In this document: positions 36,481 to 58,996 of the stretch, piece after piece
Position numbering within the stretch: the stretch's first letter is position 1
Layout: each line of letters starts with the position of its first letter
From: Lysobacter sp.
GTDB taxonomy: Bacteria > Pseudomonadota > Gammaproteobacteria > Xanthomonadales > Xanthomonadaceae
Direction: 5' to 3'
Length of the DNA: 64,000 nt
Assembly (NCBI GenBank): GCA_019634715.1
Contig: JAHCAU010000004.1
Span: 62,001-126,000 of the forward strand
Made by a program: the position numbers and the translations under genes
Notes under the pieces: generated by a model
Seen by the model: the letters and a program-made list of their open reading frames with translations, nothing else
What the model was told of the DNA's origin: nothing
The model's database searches: none

Positions 36481-39400
36481 TCAGCGCGACCGGCGCGCGC
36501 CATCGCCTCCACGACCCGGTCGCAACGCGGGCGCCGGTCGCGGAATCCGCGAGGGCGACAGCTCGGGCCGCTGCGGTCCGCCGGTGCGCATGCGCTTGGG
36601 CACCACTTCGTACGCCGATGTCTGCGTGGCGACGTTGCCCGCCTTGTCGGTCGCGGTGCAGGTCGCCGTCTTCGTGCCCAGCGCCGCGGTCTCGACCGGC
36701 GTGCAGGACGCGCTCGCGATCCCCGACAGTGCGTCGGACGCGGTCAGGCGGAAATCGTGCGTCGCGTTCTGGACGAGCTGTGCGGGCGGCATGGTGGCCG
36801 TCAGCTGCGGCGCGACGCGATCGATGTTGACCGACACCGATGCGCCGCCTATGAAGTTGCCTGCCCGGTCGTACAGCGAACCCGGCTCCGGGAAGAAGAA
36901 CTGCCCTTGGCCATCCTGGGTGAAATCCCGACCCGCCGGACAAGCCGTGGCCAATCCCGAGCTCGCGTCGCTGCAGTCGTAACGAACGGTCACCGAGGTG
37001 TTGTTCCAGCCGTAGGCATTCGGTGCGGGCGAGAGGACGCGCCCGAAGCTCGGCGGCGTGACATCGCGGTACACGCGATGCGTGATCGACGAGGTGCCGC
37101 CTGCGCTCGTCGCGGTGCAGGTGATGTCGGTGCCGGCGGTGTCGGTCGTCAGCACGATCTCCTCGCAGCCGCTCGTGGACTGGATCGCGCTCTGCGGGTC
37201 CCAGACCTCCCAGCGGATGCGGACATCGCCGCGATACCAGACGCTCTTGCCCTTCACGCCGGACACGACCGGCTCGATCCAGGGTCCGGAGGTATCCGGC
37301 CCGGTCCCCGCGATCGAAAGCCGGTACGAGGCCTGCGCGACGAAGCCGTTGTCGTCGCGCGCCTCCACGACGATGTCGTAGTCGCCCCAGACCACCGGCG
37401 CGCCCTGCAGCCGGCCATTCGCTTCGAGCGCGACCCCCGGCGGCAACCTGCCGGCGAGCAGGCGGAAACGCGGGTTCGCGGGCGTGTAGCCCTGCGACGC
37501 CACCATGCCCAGGTCGACGGCATACGCCTGCTGCAACGCAGCCGCGGGCAATGCCGCGGGCGCGATCGAGAAGGTCGGTGCCTGCCCGGCGGCGTTGCTG
37601 CCCCAGCAGAGGCGGGCGCCGTCGTCACGGATCGCGCAGCTGTGCGCGAAGCCCGCCGAGACCGCGACGTAACGCCCGGTCGGGGGCGACGCCTGGCCAT
37701 CGCGATTGCGTCCCCAGCACGCCAGCATCCCGTCCATGCGGATGCCGCAGTTGTGGAAACTGCCGGCGGCGAAGCGCCGGAACGCACCCTGCGGCGCGCT
37801 TGCCTGGCCTTCGGTGCCCAGTCCCCAGCAATGCAGTTCGCCTTCGACGGCGAGCGCACAGCTGTGACGCTCGCCGACATTGACCGCGAGGAACTCGCCG
37901 GCGGGCGCGGCGGTCTGCCCGTCCACGCCATAGCCCCAGCACGTCACCGTGCCGTCGTCGCGCAGCCCGCAGCTGTGGTTGAGCGCGGTGGCGACCGAGA
38001 CGAATTCGCCGGCCGGCGGCGGGGTGCCCTGCCCGTTTTCGTTCCAGCCCCAGCAGGTCGTCGTCGCACCCGTGCCATCAGCGCCGACGGCGCAGCCGTT
38101 GAACTGGCCGACATCGAAGGCCCGCACGGCACTCGCCGGCGGCGTCGAACCGCCGTGGGTATCGTCGCCCCAGCAATGGAGCCGGCCATCGCCAGCCAAG
38201 GCGCAGCCGTGGTCGGCATCGAGGGCGATATTGCGGGCACGGATGGCGGGCGCGCTGCGCTGGCCGTGGGTGTCGTCGCCCCAGCAGGCGACCAGGCCGT
38301 TGGCATCGAGCGAGCATGCGTGCGCAGCGCCTGCGGCGATGGCGCCACGGCCCAGGCGGAACGCATCGGCGGCAAGTTCCAAGTATTTCGAGCCTCGACA
38401 TACCACGGTGCCACGCTCGTTGAGCGCGCATGCGACATCGCCGCCGATGCCAATCGCCGTGTAGCCCGCCTCGGGAAACGAAGGCACGCCATACCCATCG
38501 TCGCCAACGCAGTAGAGTTGGATACCGCCGAGCAAGATGCAGGCGTGGCGGCGACCGATCTCGATGTCGCGCGCCCAGAAGCTCGTGATGTTCCGGACCC
38601 ATGTCGCATCCGCGCCCCAGCAGCGGATCATGCTGTAGGCATTGCTGGCGCAGGCCTTGTCGCCGCCTGCCGTGACATGGATGTAGCCGGTACCCTGGGG
38701 AGTCTCCAGTACCGCCTCGCCTTCGCCCCAGCAAGCAATGCCGCCATCCTGACGCAACGCACAGCTGAAACTGTCGCCGGACACCAGTTTCGTGAACACG
38801 CCCGAGGGCGGTTGCGTCGAACCCGAGCGATCCTCACCCCAGCACACGACCTGACCTCCGGTACGCAAGCCGCAGGCATGCCATTTGCCGGCACTGATCG
38901 CAGCGATGCCTGTGCCGATGTCAGCTGGAGGCGCCGGGAAGTCGCCCCAGCACACGAGGCTGCCATCATGCTTCACGCCGCACCCTCCGTTCGATCCAAG
39001 CGCGAGATCCTCGTAGCGGCCCAATGGCGGCAACAGAGCCTCGTTGCCATCGGCGCACAGCGGAGTGCCATCGCCCTCCAGAACACAGATGCCACCCTCG
39101 TTGCCGACCTCGATGCGCACGAGCGGCGCGCGCAGGTGGTCCCGCCTGTATGGCAAAGAAAGCGACCAGCCCCAGCACGCAAGGCGTCCGTCGACACGGC
39201 GCGCGCACGTATCGCTGCTCCCGGCCGCCACTTCGGTGAAACGTCCACCCGATGGTGCAGCGGACTGGCCATACGTGTTCTCGCCCCAGCACACCGCGCT
39301 GCCGTCGCCGCGGATCGCGCAGCTGTGGTATTCGCCTGCAGAGACCGCCGTGAATCCGGTCCCCGATGGCGCCTCTGTCTGCCCGTGGCTGTTCGAACCC

Positions 39401-40083
39401 CAGCACGCAATGCTGCCATCCACCCGAAGCGCGCAGGCATGCCAACCACCGAGATCGAGCTGGACGAACCGTCCTGCCGGCATCTGGTTCAATTGCGCGC
39501 TGTCGGGATGCGCGGACCAGCAGCGGAGCTTGCCATCGTCGCGGATCGCGCATGCGAACGATGTGCTGATCGACACCGCGCGATACCGGCCTTCGACGGG
39601 CTGGACACTCATGAAGGACGCCGTCGTGCCCCAGCATTGCAGGCGTCCATCCGGGCGTATCCCGCAAACATTGTCCCACCCGCCCATGGCCAGGGACCGC
39701 CATGGACCCGGCGGCACGCTCGGCGCAGGAATCCGTCCCCAGCACACGGCTTCGCCGTCCGACCGTATGCCGCAACTGGCCCATGTCGCCGACGCGATGG
39801 AGACGAAGCGCTCGGACGGCAACTGATCGAAGCCATCGCCGGCATCGCCCCAGCAGGCAAGACTGCCAGCCTCCGTGATCGCGCACGCATGGGAACCGAC
39901 CACATCGAGGGTCTTTCCGTCCGCGAACGGCGTCAGCAGCCCCTCATTCGCCGCTGCCGGCAGCACCGACACGACCAGCAGGCAGATCGCCACCCACCAG
40001 CGAAAACACCCACCCCGCGTGGCGCGACCCGACCTGCGCGGATCCGTCGCGGACGCGCACGCCCCCTCGAACGACATCGACAT
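36481..40083 (-). CDS. giant secreted RCC1-repeat protein with Ig-like C-terminal domains
   Basis: A 1200-residue exported protein. A signal anchor lies at about residues 28-45 (WWVAICLLVVSVLPAAANEG). Residues about 45-870 hold 21 RCC1/BLIP-II-like repeats of about 40 residues, each with a pattern HxCAxR-x-DGxxxCWGxN-xGQ. Twenty-one is three times the usual seven blades, so three propellers are possible. Most repeats carry two cysteines. After this are a He_PIG-like cadherin-type fold (LPPGVALEANGRLQGAP) and two bacterial Ig/HYR-like modules (TPPSFG..., TDKAGNVATQTSAYEVV). A GGGAGGGAG ribosome site precedes ATG at 40081-40083. Role likely adhesion or ligand binding outside the cell; unknown. 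Confidence 0.9.
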   Translation of the reverse strand: MSMSFEGACASATDPRRSGRATRGGCFRWWVAICLLVVSVLPAAANEGLLTPFADGKTLDVVGSHACAITEAGSLACWGDAGDGFDQLPSERFVSIASATWASCGIRSDGEAVCWGRIPAPSVPPGPWRSLAMGGWDNVCGIRPDGRLQCWGTTASFMSVQPVEGRYRAVSISTSFACAIRDDGKLRCWSAHPDSAQLNQMPAGRFVQLDLGGWHACALRVDGSIACWGSNSHGQTEAPSGTGFTAVSAGEYHSCAIRGDGSAVCWGENTYGQSAAPSGGRFTEVAAGSSDTCARRVDGRLACWGWSLSLPYRRDHLRAPLVRIEVGNEGGICVLEGDGTPLCADGNEALLPPLGRYEDLALGSNGGCGVKHDGSLVCWGDFPAPPADIGTGIAAISAGKWHACGLRTGGQVVCWGEDRSGSTQPPSGVFTKLVSGDSFSCALRQDGGIACWGEGEAVLETPQGTGYIHVTAGGDKACASNAYSMIRCWGADATWVRNITSFWARDIEIGRRHACILLGGIQLYCVGDDGYGVPSFPEAGYTAIGIGGDVACALNERGTVVCRGSKYLELAADAFRLGRGAIAAGAAHACSLDANGLVACWGDDTHGQRSAPAIRARNIALDADHGCALAGDGRLHCWGDDTHGGSTPPASAVRAFDVGQFNGCAVGADGTGATTTCWGWNENGQGTPPPAGEFVSVATALNHSCGLRDDGTVTCWGYGVDGQTAAPAGEFLAVNVGERHSCALAVEGELHCWGLGTEGQASAPQGAFRRFAAGSFHNCGIRMDGMLACWGRNRDGQASPPTGRYVAVSAGFAHSCAIRDDGARLCWGSNAAGQAPTFSIAPAALPAAALQQAYAVDLGMVASQGYTPANPRFRLLAGRLPPGVALEANGRLQGAPVVWGDYDIVVEARDDNGFVAQASYRLSIAGTGPDTSGPWIEPVVSGVKGKSVWYRGDVRIRWEVWDPQSAIQSTSGCEEIVLTTDTAGTDITCTATSAGGTSSITHRVYRDVTPPSFGRVLSPAPNAYGWNNTSVTVRYDCSDASSGLATACPAGRDFTQDGQGQFFFPEPGSLYDRAGNFIGGASVSVNIDRVAPQLTATMPPAQLVQNATHDFRLTASDALSGIASASCTPVETAALGTKTATCTATDKAGNVATQTSAYEVVPKRMRTGGPQRPELSPSRIPRPAPALRPGRGGDGARRSR

Positions 40084-42911: not shown

Positions 42912-43297
42912 TCGATGCCCTCCCCGAACATCATCCGATGCCCGTCGATCGTGCGGATGCCGAATTCGCGCATGCCCCAGGGTTCATCGCGCAGCGGCTT
43001 GATCGTGTCGATGCCGCGCGCGGCAAGCTCGGCATGCAGCGCGTCGATGCCGTCGACCTCGATGTAGGCGAAGTAGGCGTGGTCGCCGGTGGCGGCGGGA
43101 GACAGCGCGTCGGGGCATTCGCCGGCGAGGATCACGCAGGCGTCGCGCTGGAACCAGCGCCAGCCGGGATCGCCGACCTCCTGGATGTCGAAACCAAGGA
43201 TATCGCGGTACCACGCGGCGGAACGGGCGAGGTCCGGCACGGCGATGACGTGACGGGGCCGGGCGAGCGCGACGGCCCGCGCAGGCATCCCGCTCAC
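42908..43297 (-). CDS. VOC-family (glyoxalase/bleomycin-resistance fold) protein
   Basis: A 129-residue metal-site fold with HVIAVPDLARSAAWYRDILGF near the N-terminus, which is the classic VOC opening, and a second half ending FGIRTIDGHRMMFGEGIE with the C-terminal Glu and His region. Substrate unknown. The start is GTG with a GTGA overlap to the YdcH gene upstream; an ATG at 43288 is possible. Its stop overlaps the next start by 4 bp as well, so three genes are chained. Confidence 0.8.
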   Translation of the reverse strand: MSGMPARAVALARPRHVIAVPDLARSAAWYRDILGFDIQEVGDPGWRWFQRDACVILAGECPDALSPAATGDHAYFAYIEVDGIDALHAELAARGIDTIKPLRDEPWGMREFGIRTIDGHRMMFGEGIE

Positions 43298-43512
43298 GCC
43301 GGCTCGTCCGGAATCAGCGCGGACTCCAGGCGGTGGATGGTGTCCTTGAGTTGCAGCTTGCGCTTCTTGAGGCGCTTGATGGCCAGTTCGTCCGCGGCGA
43401 TGTTGTCGTGCAGGCGGTCGATGGCCACATCGAGGTCACGGTGCTCCAGACGCAGCTCGGCGAGGCGCTGGGCGATCCGTGAGAGTTCGGTCGGGTCGGT
43501 GGGCTGGTTCAT
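43294..43512 (-). CDS. YdcH-like coiled-coil protein (DUF465)
   Basis: A 72-residue protein, mostly helical with coiled-coil heptads (MNQPTDPTELSRIAQRLAEL; IKRLKKRKLQLKDTIHRLES). It matches the DUF465/YdcH family, which has no known function; members are small cytoplasmic proteins. The first of three coupled genes. The start is the only ATG that gives family length. Confidence 0.78.
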   Translation of the reverse strand: MNQPTDPTELSRIAQRLAELRLEHRDLDVAIDRLHDNIAADELAIKRLKKRKLQLKDTIHRLESALIPDEPA

Positions 43513-43618
43513 CGCCCCCGAGCTTAGAGCGTGCGATGCACTTTTCATACGTCGGGCGACCGGGCGTCGGCGGCCCGACAGGACCGGCGAGAGACATGGA
43601 GAGATCGTGAACAGGCTC

Positions 43619-43984
43619 TCAGCGCCCGGCGATGTACAGGGCGGCATCCTGCTCGGGGGTCGATTCGTGCCAGGTCGCATGCGCGGACTCCTGCGACGGG
43701 GCTGCCTCGGCGGATTCCGCGGGCCAGGCCGCGGCCCGCTCCAGGTCGACCTGCGGCAGATCCGCATGCGCCTGGTCGGCGCTGGAGGCGAGTGCGGCGG
43801 ACGGGGTCGCGACCTCCACCAGGGGCGCGACCTCTTCGCCGGGCACGCGCATCGAGGCGCCCAGCACCCAGACCAGCAGCGCGGCCCAGAGCGCCGCGAA
43901 ACCGAGGCGCGCACGCATCCGGCGCCAGCGACGGGCCTGGCGGGAGACCGGAGCGGAGGCGGGAGCAAGGGCGGCGTGGCGCAT
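43619..43984 (-). CDS. single-span membrane protein, candidate sigma-54 target
   Basis: A 121-residue protein with a basic N-terminus (SRQARRWRRMRARLG), one hydrophobic helix (FAALWAALLVWVLGASM) and an acidic periplasmic tail (VPGEEVAPLVEVATPSAALASSADQAHADLPQVDL...). A GGAG ribosome site lies upstream of the ATG. It is divergent from the DUF1328 gene at 44301; the shared 316-bp region contains a CGTGC-N5-GCACG palindrome (44100-44114) and a -24/-12-like element at 44030-44045 facing this gene. Function unknown; the context suggests envelope stress. Confidence 0.7.
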   Translation of the reverse strand: MRHAALAPASAPVSRQARRWRRMRARLGFAALWAALLVWVLGASMRVPGEEVAPLVEVATPSAALASSADQAHADLPQVDLERAAAWPAESAEAAPSQESAHATWHESTPEQDAALYIAGR

Positions 43985-44029
43985 GTCGGTTCTCCACGGG
44001 CTGACATCGACGGGGGCACGGAAAGCGCA

Positions 44030-44045
44030 ACCAAGATCCATGCCA
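44030..44045 (-). promoter_or_regulatory. possible sigma-54 promoter for 43984 gene
   Basis: TGGCATGGATCTTGGT on the minus strand: GG-N10-GG, so the -24 half is good (TGGCA) but the -12 half is TTGG rather than TTGC. About 46 bp before the ATG. The TGC-N5-GCA site centre lies about 88 bases upstream of the expected start. Confidence 0.4.
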
Positions 44046-44099
44046 TGCCGCGGGGCCGCGCCGCGACTGGACATGCGCGCCGATCGCGGCGGCGGGCGT

Positions 44100-44114
44100 C
44101 GTGCAAGCCGCACG
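44100..44114. promoter_or_regulatory. CGTGC-N5-GCACG palindrome (upstream activator-like site)
   Basis: CGTGCAAGCCGCACG, a perfect 5-bp-arm inverted repeat identical in arms to those before the sigma-54 regulator gene (50110-50126 and 50142-50156). It lies in the divergent spacer at 43985-44300. Confidence 0.6.
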
Positions 44115-44231
44115 GCGCCATGCGGAAACCACGAATCCCGGCCTCTCATCGGGACAACGCGCGTACCCCGAGGCTGCGGCCAAATCGTTGATATCGCTGT
44201 CGTTGCCGGGCATTCATGCCGACGGGCCGGC

Positions 44232-44247
44232 TGGCATGCGTCTTGAA
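44232..44247 (+). promoter_or_regulatory. possible sigma-54 promoter for DUF1328 gene
   Basis: TGGCATGCGTCTTGAA, identical in the first 14 bases to the promoter-like element of the sigma-54 regulator (50067 down to 50052), except -12 reads TTGA instead of TTGC. 53 bp before the ATG at 44301. Confidence 0.45.
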
Positions 44248-44300
44248 GGGAGGAACCCAGGTCCGCGTTGCGGGCCCGCCATTCCGAAGGAGAGTCCCCC

Positions 44301-44465
44301 ATGCTGCGCTATGCCCTCATTTTCCTCGTCGTCGCCCTGATCGCCGCCGTGCTCGGCTTCACCGGCATCGCCGGCGCCGCCGCCGGCATCGCGAAGATCC
44401 TGTTCGTGGTGTTCCTGGTGCTGTTCGTGCTGTCGCTGCTGCTGGGCCGACGCAAGGTCGTCTGA
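44301..44465 (+). CDS. DUF1328-family small membrane protein (YtjA-like)
   Basis: A 54-residue protein with two transmembrane helices ([17 protein letters not shown] and [18 protein letters not shown]) separated by [10 protein letters not shown]. It matches DUF1328 by length and pattern (E. coli YtjA is 53 residues). The AAGGAGAG ribosome site is strong. Its divergent spacer has sigma-54-type motifs. DUF1328 genes are often grouped with CsbD and BON-domain stress genes, both of which are in this window. Confidence 0.88.
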
Positions 44466-44485
44466 CCAGGGCCGTCCGCCTTCCA

Positions 44486-44511
44486 CTGCCGCTGGCTCAG
44501 GCCAGCGGCAG
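44486..44511. terminator. bidirectional terminator overlapping the kinase stop codon
   Basis: CTGCCGCTGGC-TCAG-GCCAGCGGCAG, an 11-bp perfect stem with a 4-base loop between the DUF1328 gene and the convergent REC-kinase gene. The kinase stop codon (44497-44499) lies in the loop and its last codons form one arm. Confidence 0.7.
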
Positions 44512-45592
44512 CTCGAAGACGAAGCTCGCCCCGCCTCCGGGGCGGTCTTCGTACCAGAGGTCGCCGCCCATCGCGCGGGCACGCTGCTTGGCCAGCGCCA
44601 GACCGAGACCGGTCGAGGTCTCGCCGCCGGTGGGCGTGGCGCCGAGACGCACGAAGCGGCGGAACAGCCGCTCGCGGTCGCGCGGTGGAATGCCCGGGCC
44701 GCGATCGTGCACGCCCAGTGCGGCCACGTCGCCGCGACGCGCCACCGACAACATCACTTCGCCGTCCGGCGGGCCGTACTTGATCGCATTCGACAGCAGG
44801 TTCTGCAGCACGTGTCCGGCGCCTGCGCGCTCGGCCAGCACGCGCAGGCCCGTGTCCTCGACCACCAGCGACAGGGCGATGCCCTTGCGCGCGGCCTGCG
44901 GCGCGATCAGGTCCAGCGCGGCGCGCGCCAGCGTCGCGGCATCGACCTCGGCCACCGGTACGCCCTGGCTGGCATCCTGCTGCTGGTCGAGGAAGGCGGT
45001 GACGAACAGCAGGCCGGCATCGGCCGAGGCGCGGATCGAGTCGAACAGGCGCGCGCGCTGGTTCGCGTCGGAGTCGACATGCGATTCGCGCAGCATGTCC
45101 AGCGAAAAAAGGATGTTGCCGAAGTGGTTGCGCAGGTCGTGGCTGACGATCTCGGCCATGCGCTGGCGTTCCTCGGCGACCCGCGCCAGGCGCTCGCGCG
45201 AGCGCTTGAGGTCGAGGTGGGTGCGGACGCGCGCGAGCAGCTCTTCGGCGATGAAGGGCTTGGTGATGTAGTCGACCGCGCCAGCCGAAAACGCCCGCAC
45301 CAGGCTGTCGCGTTCGTGATCGGCGGTGAGGAACACCACCGGTACGTGGCGGGTCTGCGCCATGGCCTGCAGGCCTTCGAGCACGGCGAAGCCGTCGAGG
45401 CCGGGCATGCGCATGTCGAGCAGCACCAGATCCGGTGGGGAATGCTCGGCCAGCGCCAGGGCTTCGGCGCCGTCGAGCACCGGTACCACGTCGAATTCGG
45501 CATGGGTGAGCAGCTGGCCGAGCACCTGCACGTTCGCGGCCTGGTCGTCCACGACCATGATCACCGGCAGGGCCACGGCGGCGGAAAGGAAT

Positions 45593-45603
<11 letters not shown>
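44497..45603 (-). CDS. REC-histidine kinase (response regulator domain fused to HisKA-HATPase)
   Basis: A 368-residue soluble protein. REC domain at about 12-130: VDDQAANVQ, LLDMRMPGLDG with the phospho-acceptor Asp, and TADH...DYITKPF. HisKA at about 145-215 with phospho-His in SHDLRNHFG. HATPase at about 255-365 with N-box NLLSNAIKYG, DRGPGIPP and GLGLALAKQR. There is no sensor domain, so it likely takes phosphate or signal from the hybrid kinase upstream, which it overlaps by 11 bp. It probably sits in a four-gene operon with a sigma-54 regulator. Confidence 0.9.
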
Positions 45604-47815
<2,212 letters not shown>

Positions 47816-47892
47816 GGGTCGGTCCGACGGGGGCAGGTCGCGATGCGGTCCGGCATCGCGGTACGGGAACGGGAGGCGGTGTCAGGGGAGGA

Positions 47893-48414
47893 TCAGAGGT
47901 TCATCAGCCAGATGGTGCCGTTCAGGACCAGCGCGAACGACACCCACAGCAGGTAGGGCAGCATCAGGTAGCCGGCCAGCGGACGCACGCGACCGAAGGT
48001 CAGCAGCGTCCACAGCAGCACGACCCACAGCGCGCAGATGTCGACGAAGGCCGCACCCGGGCTGCGCAGGCCGAAGAACAGCGGGGTCCACGCCAGGTTC
48101 AGTGCGAACTGCACGAAGAACAGCACGAATGCGCGGCGGCGCAGCCCGCTGTCCACCCCGGCGGTGCGCTGCACCACCCATGCCGCGACCGCCATCGCCA
48201 CGTACAGCACGGTCCACACCGGGCCGAACAGCCAGTCCGGCGGCTGGAACGTCGGCTTCGCGAGCGACGCGAACCAGTCGCCGGGCGGAAAGAGCACGCC
48301 GGAGAGCGCGCCCAGGCCAGCCACCAGCAGGATCCAGGCCAGCAGCAGCGCCCCGCTCCACAGTGGGGATCGGGCGAAATCTTCGGAGACGGGCTCGTGG
48401 CGTGGATCGGGCAT
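47893..48414 (-). CDS. tspO: TspO/MBR family protein
   Basis: A 173-residue inner-membrane protein with five transmembrane helices. The TspO pattern is clear: KPTFQPPDWLFGPVWTVLYVAMA, and FFVQFALNLAWTPLFFGLR with the W-x-x-x-F motif. TspO binds porphyrins and other tetrapyrroles and is linked to stress and redox control. It lies between the sigma-54 regulator (82 bp upstream) and the hybrid kinase (77 bp downstream) on the same strand. The start at 48414 is chosen because the upstream in-frame codons lie in non-family sequence. Confidence 0.88.
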   Translation of the reverse strand: MPDPRHEPVSEDFARSPLWSGALLLAWILLVAGLGALSGVLFPPGDWFASLAKPTFQPPDWLFGPVWTVLYVAMAVAAWVVQRTAGVDSGLRRRAFVLFFVQFALNLAWTPLFFGLRSPGAAFVDICALWVVLLWTLLTFGRVRPLAGYLMLPYLLWVSFALVLNGTIWLMNL

Positions 48415-48496
48415 GCGGACAACCTGCAGCGTGGGACGTGAGTCGTGGTGGTGCGGCGCATGGAACCCGACGGACGAACCCTGCGCTTGGATGCAA

Positions 48497-49966
48497 TCAG
48501 AAACCGTAGAGCTTGCGTTTCCGGTAGAGCGTGGAGGCATCGATGCCCAGCGTCTTCGCGGCGGCGTCGAGGCTGTCGCTGTGGCCGAGCACGCGTTCGA
48601 TGTGCAGCCGCTCCAGCGCTTCGAGCGACATCAGCGCGCCGGGCACCGCTTCGGCGCGACGCGAGGCGTCCAGGGTCAGCAGGTCCGGCGCGATCTCCTC
48701 GTCGCGGCACAGGATCACCGCGCGCTCCATCATGTTCTGCAGCTCGCGCACGTTGCCCGGCCAGGCATAGGTGCGCAGCTTCGACAGCGCCGTCGCCGAC
48801 AGCCGGCGCGCGGGGCGGCCGTAATCGGCGGCATAGCGGCGGACGAAACCGTTGGCGAGGTCTTCGAGATCCTCCTGGCGCTCGCGCAGCGGCGGCAGGG
48901 TGATGCTGATCACGTTGAGCCGGTACAGCAGGTCGAGGCGGAACGTGCCTTCGGCCACCATCGCGTCCAGGTCGCGGTTGGTCGCGGCGACGATGCGAAC
49001 GTCGGCCTTGCGCGTGGCCGGATCGCCGACGCGTTCGTATTCCTTGTCCTGGATGAAGCGCAGCAGCTTGGGCTGCAGCGCCAGCGGGAAATCGCCGACC
49101 TCGTCCATGAACAGCGTGCCGCCATCGGCATGGCTGACCCGGCCGACCGCGTTCTGCACGGCGCCGGTGAACGAGCCCTTGGCGTGGCCGAACAGCTCGC
49201 TTTCAAGCAGCTCGGCGGTGAGCGCGGGGCAGTTGACCGTGGCGAATTCGGCCGAGGCGCGCGGGCTGGCGCGGTGCACGGCGCGCGCGACCACGCCCTT
49301 GCCGGTACCGCTCTCGCCGAGGATCAGCAGGTTGGCGTCGGTGGCGGCCACCTGCAGCGCCATGTCGATGGCCGCCTGCATCGCCGGGTTGCGGCTGCTC
49401 AGCTCGGGCGTGCCGCGGGAGACCTCGCGTTCGAGGGTGTCGACGCGGTCGCGCAGGCGCCGCGCCTCGATCTGGCGCGCGACCGCGATGCGCAGCTGGT
49501 CCGGCGAACAGGGTTTGACCAGGTAATCGGCGGCGCCCAGCGAGATCGCGCGCACCGCCTGCTCGACCTGGGCGTTGGCGGTCACCATCACCACGCGCAT
49601 GCGCGGCGCCAGTTCGGCCAGCCTGGGCAGGGCATCGATGCCGGCATCGCTGCCGATGTCGTGGTCGAGCAGGCAGACATCGAAGGGCCAGGTCGCGGCC
49701 AGGCGCAGGCCGTCGGCCAGGGTGTCGGCGGTTTCGACCTTGTGCCCGTCGCGGGCCAGGGCCAGGGCGAAGTTCTGCAGCAGCTGGTTGTCGTCGTCGA
49801 TGGCCAGCACGCGGCCGGGGGGCGGTGTCGCAGGGGTGGGCACGTCCGGTGTCTCCGTCGTCGGCAGGGCGCCCGACACTATATCCACGCCCATCGGGCG
49901 GGACTCGCGCGGGTCCAGGACGGCCCGGGGGCTGGAAGGGCGACGCGGATGCGCGGCTACGGTCAT
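48497..49966 (-). CDS. sigma-54-dependent response regulator (NtrC family)
   Basis: A 489-residue enhancer-binding protein. A Pro-rich N-terminal extension precedes a REC domain (about 50-165: AIDDDNQLL, CLLDHDIGSDAG with the acceptor Asp, LVKPCSPDQ). The AAA+ domain follows (about 190-425: GESGTGKG Walker A, GSFTGA loop in place of GAFTGA, GGTLFMDEVG Walker B, RLDLLYRLNVI). A C-terminal Fis-type HTH ends it (SLDAAAKTLGIDASTLYRKRKLYGF). Its own upstream region has a near-consensus sigma-54 promoter (50052-50067) and two CGTGC-N5-GCACG palindromes, suggesting autoactivation. It is first of the operon with tspO and both kinases. Confidence 0.93.
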   Translation of the reverse strand: MTVAAHPRRPSSPRAVLDPRESRPMGVDIVSGALPTTETPDVPTPATPPPGRVLAIDDDNQLLQNFALALARDGHKVETADTLADGLRLAATWPFDVCLLDHDIGSDAGIDALPRLAELAPRMRVVMVTANAQVEQAVRAISLGAADYLVKPCSPDQLRIAVARQIEARRLRDRVDTLEREVSRGTPELSSRNPAMQAAIDMALQVAATDANLLILGESGTGKGVVARAVHRASPRASAEFATVNCPALTAELLESELFGHAKGSFTGAVQNAVGRVSHADGGTLFMDEVGDFPLALQPKLLRFIQDKEYERVGDPATRKADVRIVAATNRDLDAMVAEGTFRLDLLYRLNVISITLPPLRERQEDLEDLANGFVRRYAADYGRPARRLSATALSKLRTYAWPGNVRELQNMMERAVILCRDEEIAPDLLTLDASRRAEAVPGALMSLEALERLHIERVLGHSDSLDAAAKTLGIDASTLYRKRKLYGF

Positions 49967-50051
49967 CGGACGGTCCTGAGGGGAATGCGTGTGGGGGAGG
50001 GGTCGGCAGGCAGTGCGGGCACGGCACCCGCGTCCACGCGAGCGTTACCCG

Positions 50052-50067
50052 TGCAAGACGCATGCCA
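50052..50067 (-). promoter_or_regulatory. sigma-54 (-24/-12) promoter of the regulator operon
   Basis: TGGCATGCGTCTTGCA on the minus strand: TGGCA-N6-TTGCA with exact GG-N10-GC spacing, the sigma-54 consensus. Expected start near 50041, about 75 bases before the ATG at 49966. Confidence 0.7.
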
Positions 50068-50109
50068 TGCGGCCGGACCCCGTGGTTGCAGCGCCGGCAT
50101 CGATCCGGG

Positions 50110-50126
50110 TCGTGCAAAAAGCACGA
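50110..50126. promoter_or_regulatory. activator palindrome 1 of the regulator gene
   Basis: TCGTGCAAAAAGCACGA, a perfect 6-bp-arm inverted repeat with 5-base spacer, centred about 77 bp upstream of the expected start. Fits an enhancer-binding protein site. Confidence 0.6.
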
Positions 50127-50141
50127 TCGGGTCGTGCGCGC

Positions 50142-50156
50142 CGTGCAGGATGCACG
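50142..50156. promoter_or_regulatory. activator palindrome 2 of the regulator gene
   Basis: CGTGCAGGATGCACG, same arms as palindrome 1, centred 31 bp (about three turns) further upstream, about -108. Confidence 0.6.
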
Positions 50157-50192
50157 AAAAAAAACGCCGCCCCGGGCGAACCCGGGACGGCG
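50157..50192 (-). terminator. strong intrinsic terminator on minus strand
   Basis: GC-rich hairpin (arms CGCCGTCCCGGG / CCCGGGGCGGCG, one mismatch, TTCG loop) followed on the minus strand by eight Ts. It ends transcription coming from csbD before the regulator's promoter, directly next to its palindrome 2. Confidence 0.85.
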
Positions 50193-50464
50193 AGGCACAC
50201 ACACGGAGGGGAACAACGGGGGGATGACGCGTTTCGCATGGACCCGGGAGACTCAGCCCGGACGACGTGCTCGGGGATTCGCTGTTCTGGAGAGACGGAC
50301 CGGCGACGCCGGCGGATGCGATCCTGCCGTCCGGCAGAACCGTGGCACGCTCGCCATCCGTCCGGAGATCGGGGCCATGACGCTCCGGGGAGGAGGACCG
50401 GAAGGCGAGCGTGCCTTCGGAAGGGGCCGCTGCGCGGGCGGATGGCTCGCGCAGCGGGAGGGCA
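50193..50464. other. non-coding region between csbD and its terminator
   Basis: 272 bp with no convincing gene. It contains short GC-rich inverted repeats (for example CTGCCGTCCGGCAG near 50324). It could be a long csbD 3' UTR or an independent small RNA ending at the terminator at 50157-50192. This is the larger part of the 498-bp gap at 49967-50464. Confidence 0.3.
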
Positions 50465-50668
50465 TCAGTGGTCGATGCGCTTTTCGAAGTCGCGCACCTG
50501 GTCCATCGCGGCATCCTTGGCGATGCCGTAGCGCTCCTGGATCTTGCCGGCGAGGTACTCGCGGCTGCCTTCTGCAGCGGTCAGGTCGTTGTCGGTCAGC
50601 TCGCCCCACTGCTGCTTGATGCGGCCGGTGAGCTGCTTCCAGTTGCCCTTGATGATGTCGCTGTTCAT
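50465..50668 (-). CDS. CsbD-family stress protein
   Basis: A 67-residue protein: MNSDIIKGNWKQLTGRIKQQ, WGELTDNDL and GSREYLAGKIQERYGIAKDAA match the CsbD pattern. CsbD proteins are general-stress proteins of unknown mechanism. A perfect AAGGAG ribosome site precedes the ATG. It lies 111 bp after the BON gene on the same strand and may share its sigma-54-type promoter. Confidence 0.9.
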   Translation of the reverse strand: MNSDIIKGNWKQLTGRIKQQWGELTDNDLTAAEGSREYLAGKIQERYGIAKDAAMDQVRDFEKRIDH

Positions 50669-50779
50669 GTTGGATCTCCTTGCTTGGCTGCGGCGCACGC
50701 AGGGTGGGGAAAGGGAGCGCGCGCCGGGGTGGGGGGTCGCGGCGCCGTGGCGCCGGACCTGTCGGTCTGCCGGCGGCGA

Positions 50780-51160
50780 TCAGCCGCGCGGCTTCACCGT
50801 GAGCGTGGTCGAGTCGACCGACTTCACGCCCTTGATGCCGCGGGCGATGCTCACGGCCTTGTCGACCTGCGCGGCGCTGTCGAGGCGGCCGGCCAGGGTG
50901 ACGACACCATTGGTCGTGCTGACGTTGATGTCCAGGCCCTTGGTCTGGTCGTCGACCAGCAGGTCGGCCTTCACCTTGGTGGTGATCCAGCTGTCCTCGA
51001 CCGGCTGCTGCGAGGATTCATCGGCCTTGGTCTGCTTTGCGGCGCCGTCGGCGGCCTCATTCGCGGCACTGGCCAGCGGCGCGGCCAGCGCGACCGCGAG
51101 CGCGGCGCCGAGGGCCAGCATGCACGACGAAGACCGGGAATGCGTGGAACGCTGCGACAT
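50780..51160 (-). CDS. secreted BON-domain protein
   Basis: A 126-residue exported protein (signal peptide SSCMLALGAALAVALAAPLA, cleavage near ASA-ANE). The BON domain fills the rest: SWITTKVKADLLVDDQTKGLDINVSTTNGVVTLAGRLDS, VDKAVSIARGIKGVKSVDSTTLTV. BON proteins such as OsmY stabilise the envelope under osmotic stress. A near-consensus sigma-54 promoter lies 71-88 bp upstream (51231-51248), with two TGC-N5-GCA palindromes at -88 and -108. Operon with csbD likely. Confidence 0.9.
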   Translation of the reverse strand: MSQRSTHSRSSSCMLALGAALAVALAAPLASAANEAADGAAKQTKADESSQQPVEDSWITTKVKADLLVDDQTKGLDINVSTTNGVVTLAGRLDSAAQVDKAVSIARGIKGVKSVDSTTLTVKPRG

Positions 51161-51230
51161 GGTTGCGACTCCTGTTGCGGAAACTGTGCGGGGGAATGCC
51201 GGCGGTGGGGGTGCGCCGGCCAGGATGCAT

Positions 51231-51248
51231 CCGCAGAGCGCGTGCCAA
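51231..51248 (-). promoter_or_regulatory. sigma-54 promoter of the BON gene
   Basis: TTGGCACGCGCTCTGCGG on the minus strand: TGGCACG-N4-CTGC with exact GG-N10-GC spacing. Only the first T of the -12 element differs from consensus. Expected start about 51221. Confidence 0.65.
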
Positions 51249-51302
51249 TCGCGGTCGCCCTTTCGAATCAACAGGTTAGAAAACAGGATCGACGCCCGGC
51301 CC

Positions 51303-51336
51303 ATGCAGGCTGCAGACCGGCCATGCAGCCTGCACG
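51303..51336. promoter_or_regulatory. two activator-like TGC-N5-GCA sites before the BON gene
   Basis: CATGCAGGCTGCAGA (centre 51309) and CATGCAGCCTGCACG (centre 51329), 20 bp apart, that is two helical turns, at about -88 and -108 from the expected start. The cores TGCAGGCTGCA and TGCAGCCTGCA are reverse complements of one another. Confidence 0.55.
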
Positions 51337-51378
51337 AGACGCCGGGCCGCGCACGGCGGCACGACACGGGGTTGGGGA

Positions 51379-51384
51379 TAGAAT
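51379..51384 (+). promoter_or_regulatory. ttcA -10 element, near-leaderless
   Basis: TAGAAT ends nine bases before the ttcA ATG, so the mRNA would have at most a few leader bases. Confidence 0.5.
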
Positions 51385-51393
51385 GCGCGGCTG

Positions 51394-52302
51394 ATGAACG
51401 CCCCCCTCCTGCCCCTGTCCGAACCGCTGCCGCCGCCCTCGCGGCGCGCCGCACACGAAGCCGGCAAGCTCGCCAAGCGCCTGCGCCACCAGGTCGGTCG
51501 CGCCATCGCCGACTTCGGCATGATCGAGGACGGCGACAAGGTCATGGTCTGCCTGTCCGGCGGCAAGGACAGCTACACGATGCTGGACATCCTGCTGCAG
51601 CTGCAGAGGAAGGCGCCGGTGTCGTTCTCGATCACCGCGGTCAACCTCGACCAGAAGCAGCCGGGTTTTCCCGAGCACGTGCTGCCCGAATACCTGTCAT
51701 CGATCGGCGTCGATCACCACATCCTCGAGCAGGACACCTACTCGGTGGTCACGCGCGTGGTGCCCGAGGGCAAGACGATGTGCTCGCTGTGCTCGCGCAT
51801 GCGTCGCGGCGCGCTGTACACCTACGCCGAGGAGCAGGGATTCACCAAGATCGCGCTGGGCCACCATCGCGACGACCTGGTCGCCACCTTCTTCCTCAAC
51901 CTGTTCTTCCATTCGAAGATCAGCGGCATGCCGCCGAAGCTGCTCAGCGACGACGGCAAGCACGTGGTGATCCGTCCCCTCGCCTACGCCCGCGAAGAGG
52001 ACATCGCCGCCTATGCCGACGCGAAGGGCTTCCCGATCATCCCCTGCAACCTCTGCGGCTCGCAGGAGAACCTGCAGCGCAAGCAGGTGAAGAAGATGAT
52101 GGACGCCTGGGAACGCGAGACCCCGGGCCGCATCGAGCAGATCGCGCGCGCGCTCGGCGACATCCGTCCTTCGCAGCTCAGCGACCCGAAGCTGTTCGAC
52201 TTCCTGTCTCTGGGCAAGCGCGGCGACGACGCCCTGCCGGATGCGCATGCGTGGCTCGGTGGAGAAGCGCGGGAAACGGGAATGGGGGATCGGGAATCGT
52301 AA
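51394..52302 (+). CDS. ttcA: tRNA 2-thiocytidine(32) synthetase
   Basis: ATP-dependent enzyme that thiolates C32 of some tRNAs, using an Fe-S cluster. The 302-residue protein has the PP-loop SGGKDS (55-60), MCSLCSR with cluster cysteines about 130 and 133, GHHRDDL, and IPCNLCGSQ (Cys about 218 and 221). Length fits (E. coli 311). The last codons (ETGMGDRES) are encoded by an intergenic repeat element (52270-52387), so the natural C-terminus may be shorter. The start has a close -10, implying a leaderless mRNA. Confidence 0.95.
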
Positions 52303-52387
52303 ACCCGCGTTCCCGCACTCCACGTTTCGCCGCCGCACCATGCCCTTGCTGTTCCCATTCCCGATTCTCCGCTCCCCATTCCCGGCC
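52270..52387. repeat. inverted repeat of GGGAATGGGGGATCGGGAATC type
   Basis: Left arm at 52270-52299 and right arm at about 52352-52387 are inverted copies built from GGGAAT / ATTCCC runs. This is typical intergenic repeat DNA of Xanthomonadales. It covers the ttcA 3' end and reaches to 6 bp before rdgC. Confidence 0.65.
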
Positions 52388-52392
52388 TCCGA

Positions 52393-53298
52393 ATGTTCTT
52401 CAGAAATCTCACGTTCTTCCGCTTCCCCGCGTCGCTCGATTTCAACGAACTCGATAACGGCCTGTCCGCATTCATCCTCAAGCCGGTCGGCGCGCTGGAA
52501 CTGTCCTCGCGCGGCTTCATCTCGCCGTTCGGGCGCGGCGACCAGGAAGTGCTGTCGCACCGCATCGGCGACGCGATCTGGGTCACCGCCGGCACCGAGG
52601 ACAAGATCCTGCCCGGATCGGTGGTCAACGACCTGCTGCAGAAGAAGCTGCAGGAGATCGAGGACAAGGAAGGCCGCAAGCTCGGCGGCCGCGCGCGCAA
52701 GCGCCTGAAGGAAGACCTGGTCCACGAACTGCTGCCGCGCGCGTTCGTGAAGCCCGGCCGCACCGATGCGCTGATCGACTGCACGGAAGGCTTCATCGCC
52801 ATCGACAGCTCCTCGCGCAAGAGCGCCGAGGCCGTGGTGTCCGATGTGCGCCATGCGCTGGGCAGCTTCCCGGCGCTGCCGCTGAACGCCGAAGTCGCGC
52901 CGCGCTCGGTGCTGACCGGCTGGATCGCCGGCGACCCGCTGCCGCATGGCCTGTCGCTGGGCGACGAATGCGAACTGCGCGATCCCGTCGACAACGGCGC
53001 GATCGTGAAGTGCCAGCACCAGGAACTCGACAGCGACGAGATCGCCAAGCACCTCGAAGCCGGCAAGCAGGTGACGCGTCTCGCGCTGACCCTCGACGAC
53101 CGTCTCAGTTTCGTGCTCGGCGACGACCTGATCATCCGCAAGCTGAAGTTCCTCGACGGCGCCGTGGAACAACTCGAAACCGGCGACCGCGACGATTTCC
53201 GCGCCGAACTCGATGCGCGCTTCGCCTTGTTCAGCGCGGAAACGCGGCGCCTGTTCCGCACGCTGGAACCGGCGTTGAAGCTGTCGAAGGCAGAGTGA
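52393..53298 (+). CDS. rdgC: recombination-associated protein RdgC
   Basis: A ring-shaped DNA-binding protein that limits RecA action. The 301-residue length matches the family (303 in E. coli). It opens with MFFRNLTFFRFP and has RGFISPFGRG, KILPGSVVNDLLQKKLQEIE, ARKRLKEDLVHELLPRAF and CHALIDC-like DALIDCTEGF segments. It follows ttcA by 90 bp across a repeat. The start lies directly after CGGCCTCCGA, which is a weak ribosome site. Confidence 0.95.
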   Translation: MFFRNLTFFRFPASLDFNELDNGLSAFILKPVGALELSSRGFISPFGRGDQEVLSHRIGDAIWVTAGTEDKILPGSVVNDLLQKKLQEIEDKEGRKLGGRARKRLKEDLVHELLPRAFVKPGRTDALIDCTEGFIAIDSSSRKSAEAVVSDVRHALGSFPALPLNAEVAPRSVLTGWIAGDPLPHGLSLGDECELRDPVDNGAIVKCQHQELDSDEIAKHLEAGKQVTRLALTLDDRLSFVLGDDLIIRKLKFLDGAVEQLETGDRDDFRAELDARFALFSAETRRLFRTLEPALKLSKAE

Positions 53299-58835: not shown

Positions 58836-58912
58836 GTGGGGATACCGGCATGAGGGACTGTAGTCGACCGCCATGTCCTGTACGAGCCTGGACACAGCAC
58901 GTGCTGATGCGG

Positions 58913-58984
58913 ACATGCAGACATGCAGACATGCAGACATGCAGACATGCAGACATGCAGACATGCAGACATGCAGACATGCAG
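58913..58984. repeat. tandem octamer microsatellite, nine copies of ACATGCAG
   Basis: Nine exact copies of ACATGCAG (72 bp). The 8-bp period is not a multiple of three, so slippage would shift frame in any gene containing it. Both strands have short open frames through the array (CHADMQT/CMSACLHV-type peptides), which I regard as non-coding. Confidence 0.9.
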
Positions 58985-58996
58985 ACAGCGCATCGT

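Follow-up and report, generated by a model that had tools for sequence, protein, structure and literature searches.

A predicted sigma-54-dependent, positively autoregulated promoter of an AlgB-type regulator in Lysobacter, with a paired-site arrangement that recurs in Pseudomonas

The promoter of an AlgB-type regulator of the NtrC family in Lysobacter sp. is very probably sigma-54-dependent and positively autoregulated, with the regulator predicted to bind a pair of upstream palindromes and to drive its own operon. The module consists of a sigma-54 element preceded by two palindromes in fixed geometry; it is conserved among relatives and found in association with both RpoN and AlgB-type regulators, and the same code recurs ahead of other genes. 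Binding of the regulator to the palindromes, dependence on rpoN and activation rather than repression are suggested by this arrangement. The positive-feedback layout is supported because the sequence tests, covering footprint, rpoN, domains and gene directions, all agree.

The sigma-54 promoter TGGCATGCGTCTTGCA occupies positions 50052-50067 on the minus strand of the window, the whole 64,000-nucleotide stretch of DNA that was analyzed. It carries the -24 GG and the -12 GC as GG-N10-GC, departs by a single mismatch from TGGCACG-N4-TTGCW and contains both the TGGCAY and the TTGC context. The first-pass annotation had described a sigma-54 consensus match facing the regulator gene and a transcript start near 50041; the match and its orientation were borne out, and counting from the C of the -12 GC (50053) as -12 places the predicted +1 at 50041. 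The genome also contains an rpoN gene. As a lone motif, the element is statistically unremarkable in 64 kb: the sigma-54 pattern with up to two mismatches occurs 10 times in the window against 13 expected, which is no enrichment, and TGGCATGCGTCTTGCA is the sole match with one mismatch. No sigma-70-like promoter was detected near the regulator in a simple scan of a kind that would miss GC-rich promoters. Positive feedback requires a basal promoter, so the absence of a candidate counts against the self-activation reading.

Upstream of the sigma-54 element lie two perfect, conserved palindromes that share the core GTGC-N5-GCAC. The proximal one, TCGTGC-N5-GCACGA with the spacer AAAAA, spans 50110-50126 and is centered at 50118 (-77), and the distal one, CGTGCA-N3-TGCACG with the spacer GGA, spans 50142-50156 and is centered at 50149 (-108). 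The spacing is thus exactly the 31 bp that the first-pass annotation had given for two perfect palindromes at these offsets. Genome-wide searches in the source genome were pattern searches, and the paired palindrome has a single exact match in the 4.66 Mb. Allowing two mismatches in the pair yields many chance-like matches, and targets were counted only if the downstream gene fitted. The combined palindrome and sigma-54 pattern has few matches genome-wide, among them the regulator promoter and its BON-csbD neighbor. An Rfam scan of 43000-52500 returned no family above its gathering score, and no IHF-like site was found in the regulator's self-promoter. An intrinsic terminator with a 12-bp stem and T8 (50165-50192, minus strand) is located between csbD and the regulator promoter, and its position is conserved.

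The gene downstream of the promoter (48497-49966, minus strand) encodes an AlgB-type response regulator composed of a receiver, a sigma-54 activator AAA+ domain and a Fis-type helix-turn-helix. It is the reciprocal best match of Pseudomonas aeruginosa AlgB at 59% identity, the next best protein in the genome reaching 42%. The C-terminal DNA-binding helix, which ends in STLYRKRK and is expected to contact DNA, is near-identical to that of AlgB. The L1 loop reads GSFTGA instead of GAFTGA; the threonine-glycine-alanine is retained, and the serine variant is conserved in the clade. Three genes follow on the same strand: a TspO/MBR family membrane protein (47893-48414, start assigned by homology, the longest open reading frame beginning at 48540), a CHASE3 hybrid histidine kinase with a receiver (45593-47815) and a receiver-histidine kinase protein (44497-45603), whose gene shares 11 nt with the one before it. 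The earlier proposal that the layout would drive a whole operon including two kinases and TspO fits these four co-directional genes, among which there is no convincing internal terminator. Transcription of the four genes as one unit and control of the regulator by the operon kinases are predicted. KinB is absent from the operon, its kinases being the CHASE3 hybrid kinase and the receiver-kinase, and the protein is therefore named AlgB-type without assignment to a KinB-AlgB system. Elsewhere in the window, a predicted exported protein of 1200 amino acids with many RCC1-like repeats is encoded at 36481-40083 (minus strand), and an 8-bp sequence, ATGCAGAC, is repeated ten times in tandem at 58907-58987, downstream of tatB/tatC-like genes.

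The regulator orthologue is uncommon in the family, being present in 19 of 247 sampled genomes at a strict cut-off. The gene order of regulator, TspO, CHASE3 hybrid kinase and receiver-kinase is maintained in relatives. An alignment of their upstream regions reveals conservation of the terminator, both palindromes and the promoter block amid diverged intervening and flanking DNA, the sigma-54 element being the best conserved block. Every same-genus genome with an orthologue (7/7) has both the sigma-54 site and the palindromes. Measured from the first base of the -24 element, the palindromes lie at about -88 and -57, and their spacing is 31 bp in five of the seven and about 30 bp, with weaker half-sites, in the other two. 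Four orthologues of a second genus, which includes an Arenimonas genome, combine a sigma-54 site with a palindrome located between -99 and -101 or at -67. Across lineages, the offsets of -88, about -100 and -111 (the last in Pseudomonas) amount to steps of approximately one helical turn. The promoter module is absent upstream of the gene in more distant orthologues within the family. In a distant gammaproteobacterial MAG, genes for BON, csbD, an AlgB-type regulator, DUF1328, TspO, a hybrid kinase and a receiver-kinase are clustered in 9 kb, and the promoter module was not detected in that cluster.

The genes on either side of the operon carry related arrangements. Upstream, a BON-domain exported protein (50780-51160) and a CsbD-like protein (50465-50668) are encoded on the minus strand behind a sigma-54 promoter, TGGCACGCGCTCTGCG (51232-51247, minus strand). 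The AlgB-type site CGTGCAGGCTGCATG (51322-51336, minus strand) is positioned at -89 from the -24 element, which is the offset of the distal site at the regulator promoter, and a perfect IHF consensus sits between the palindrome and the sigma-54 element. This combination of sigma-54 element, palindrome and IHF site is conserved in two close relatives, and the BON-csbD operon, with its module at 51160-51340 on the minus strand, is a likely target of the same AlgB-type regulator. The csbD stop is separated from its terminator by approximately 270 bp (50193-50464, minus strand), which contain stretches conserved in the closest relatives; this segment has no Rfam match and may represent a small RNA or an extended 3' UTR.

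At its other end, the four-gene unit is convergent to a gene for a DUF1328 small membrane protein (44301-44465, plus strand). This gene is preceded by the AlgB-type palindrome CGTGCAAGCCGCACG (44100-44114), an IHF-like TTGATAT stretch that was read by eye and a sigma-54-like promoter with a variant -12, TGGCATGCGTCTTGAA (44232-44247, plus strand). In six relatives the promoter matches TGGCAYG-N4-TTG with A or T, never C, as the next base; the non-canonical -12 is thus conserved downstream of the palindrome, with A or T replacing the C in 7/7 species checked. A near-consensus sigma-54 element, with a site at -59, also precedes another BON-domain gene at a separate genomic location; this case is weaker in that the reversed control likewise yields one match of the pattern. 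Single-site patterns in the same genus gave some chance-like matches as well, and targets were again counted only where the downstream gene fitted. In a close relative, the sigma-54 element TGGCACGCGACTTGCA precedes a glycine-zipper protein gene (1156-1268 of that locus, minus strand), accompanied by a near-IHF site and a site at -99.

The same site code is present in Pseudomonas, where two palindromes with 31-bp spacing lie between algB and its divergent neighbor, in most cases at -111 and -80 from the -24 element. The sigma-54 element faces the neighbor, not algB, and the identity of the neighbor varies with species among DUF1328, BON and DUF2383 genes. A sigma-54 site with the 31-bp pair was found within 1.2 kb upstream in 48 of 80 AlgB-type loci, which are mostly from Pseudomonas and hence mutually related, against 0/80 downstream regions and 0/400 shuffles. 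A search of ten Pseudomonas genomes for the site together with sigma-54 returned 20 matches, and the reversed pattern returned 0. Nine of the 20 adjoin algB, and these are not independent observations, since the genomes were picked for a good algB-adjacent module; nine others lie elsewhere, ahead of BON, DUF3509 and small exported protein genes, and two are chance-like. Overall, the modules in nine Pseudomonas genomes precede BON, DUF2383, DUF3509 and small exported protein genes, and they are predicted from sequence to constitute an AlgB sigma-54 regulon. An IHF-like site lies between the palindromes and the promoter in 71 of 79 Pseudomonas modules, drawn from two overlapping sets, versus ∼12-15% in shuffles. 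In P. aeruginosa PA7, the arrangement adjoins the DUF1328 gene next to algB, its sites are one-sided and degenerate, and the genome contains no module under the strict pattern.

Other roles can be conceived for the palindromes. They could be operators for negative autoregulation of a housekeeping promoter, with sigma-54 transcription minor, a reading that is quite improbable. Self-repression is common among regulators, some basal promoter must exist, and the source genome has a third palindrome, an imperfect one at 50050-50064, that overlaps the -12 element. However, this third palindrome was rejected as a repressor site because it is not conserved among the relatives, in which conservation is highest at the sigma-54 element; the two perfect sites lie at activator positions, and the identical 31-bp pairing precedes unrelated genes. 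A role as RNA hairpins for termination or attenuation downstream of csbD, with a sigma-54 match arising by chance, is extremely unlikely. The terminator does adjoin the distal palindrome, and in the source genome the region of the proximal one resembles, by score, a terminator hairpin with T5, but the relatives lack the T5 and retain the half-sites and their spacing, on which grounds the palindromes were rejected as terminators. The same pairs are moreover found upstream of the promoters of unrelated genes in Pseudomonas.

It could also be a different regulator that binds the palindromes and controls both the operon and BON-csbD, in which case there would be no autoregulation. Occupancy of the palindromes by the AlgB-type protein is putative, and the source genome encodes seven other clear sigma-54 activator-domain proteins. 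Against this, the modules adjoin AlgB-type genes in two distant lineages, and these genes encode essentially the same C-terminal helix, ending in STLYRKRK, in both; control by a different regulator is given very little credence here.

Under positive autoregulation, kinase input would activate the regulator, whose dimers would bind the two GTGC-N5-GCAC sites on the same face of the helix, approximately three turns apart. The AAA+ ring would then assemble, contact the sigma-54 RNA polymerase at -24/-12 across a short loop and open the complex. Transcription of the operon would rise, so that the regulator and the kinases increase together with TspO, and the same code would switch on the adjacent BON-csbD and probably the DUF1328 stress genes. 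Such feedback would amplify a signal past a threshold and would depend on basal expression from another promoter. A broader reading, held with somewhat better than even confidence, is that AlgB-type regulators of Lysobacteraceae and Pseudomonas use one shared code, GTGC-N5-GCAC twice, 31 bp apart and upstream of sigma-54, which would define a direct regulon of the envelope or osmotic stress type (BON, CsbD, DUF1328, DUF2383, DUF3509, glycine-zipper and small exported proteins). Lysobacteraceae would have a close, IHF-less, self-activating copy of the module and a DUF1328 target with a conserved sigma-54 variant that lacks the -12 C.

In Pseudomonas, AlgB has been studied extensively for its control of alginate, biofilm and virulence traits. 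With a shared binding code, the genes under its direct control could be predicted, and the predictions tested in harmless relatives, and AlgB would be connected to general envelope-stress proteins; the autoactivating variant would illustrate the rewiring of one regulator between lineages. Reports on P. aeruginosa describe binding of AlgB to algD and joint action with RpoN (PMC4064291, PMC10418997, PMC6932827), to which AlgB is genetically tied (PMC4064291, PMC6932827), and Pseudomonas algB is reported to be under the control of AlgT/AlgU and RhlR (PMC10418997, PMC6932827). The search of the accessible literature returned no account of the site code or of AlgB sigma-54 self-activation and no description of BON/DUF1328-type genes as AlgB targets. 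Within the searchable literature, direct binding of AlgB is described at algD only, with no sigma-54 target list; no paper pairs AlgB with DUF1328, and the papers on PA5481/PA5482 make no mention of AlgB. PMC8041468 may contain an AlgB HT-SELEX motif, and priority for the motif is accordingly uncertain. The type of circuit is known; the site code, the regulon and the IHF-less self-promoter appear to be new within the searchable literature.

The resemblance to KinB-AlgB of Pseudomonas comprises the 59% identity, which extends over the whole core, the receiver and sigma-54 activator domains and the near-identical DNA-binding helix. The partners differ, being TspO, a CHASE3 hybrid kinase and a receiver-kinase in Lysobacter in place of KinB, as does the L1 loop (GSFTGA in Lysobacter, GAFTGA in Pseudomonas). 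The AlgB-adjacent Pseudomonas modules and the Lysobacter self-promoter are alike in the GTGC-N5-GCAC pair, the 31-bp spacing and the sigma-54 element. In Lysobacter, however, the promoter faces the regulator itself, whereas its Pseudomonas equivalent faces the divergent neighbor; the Pseudomonas pair is also ∼23 bp farther upstream and usually accompanied by an IHF-like site, which the Lysobacter self-promoter lacks. Autoactivated operons are a known kind of circuit, glnALG (from glnAp2) and zraSR being positively autoregulated NtrC-family operons. The Lysobacter locus resembles both in that its activator gene lies behind a sigma-54 promoter with paired enhancers upstream, approximately three helical turns from each other, and it differs from them in its recognition sequence, in the subfamily of its protein and in the position of its enhancers, which at -77 and -108 are closer to the promoter.
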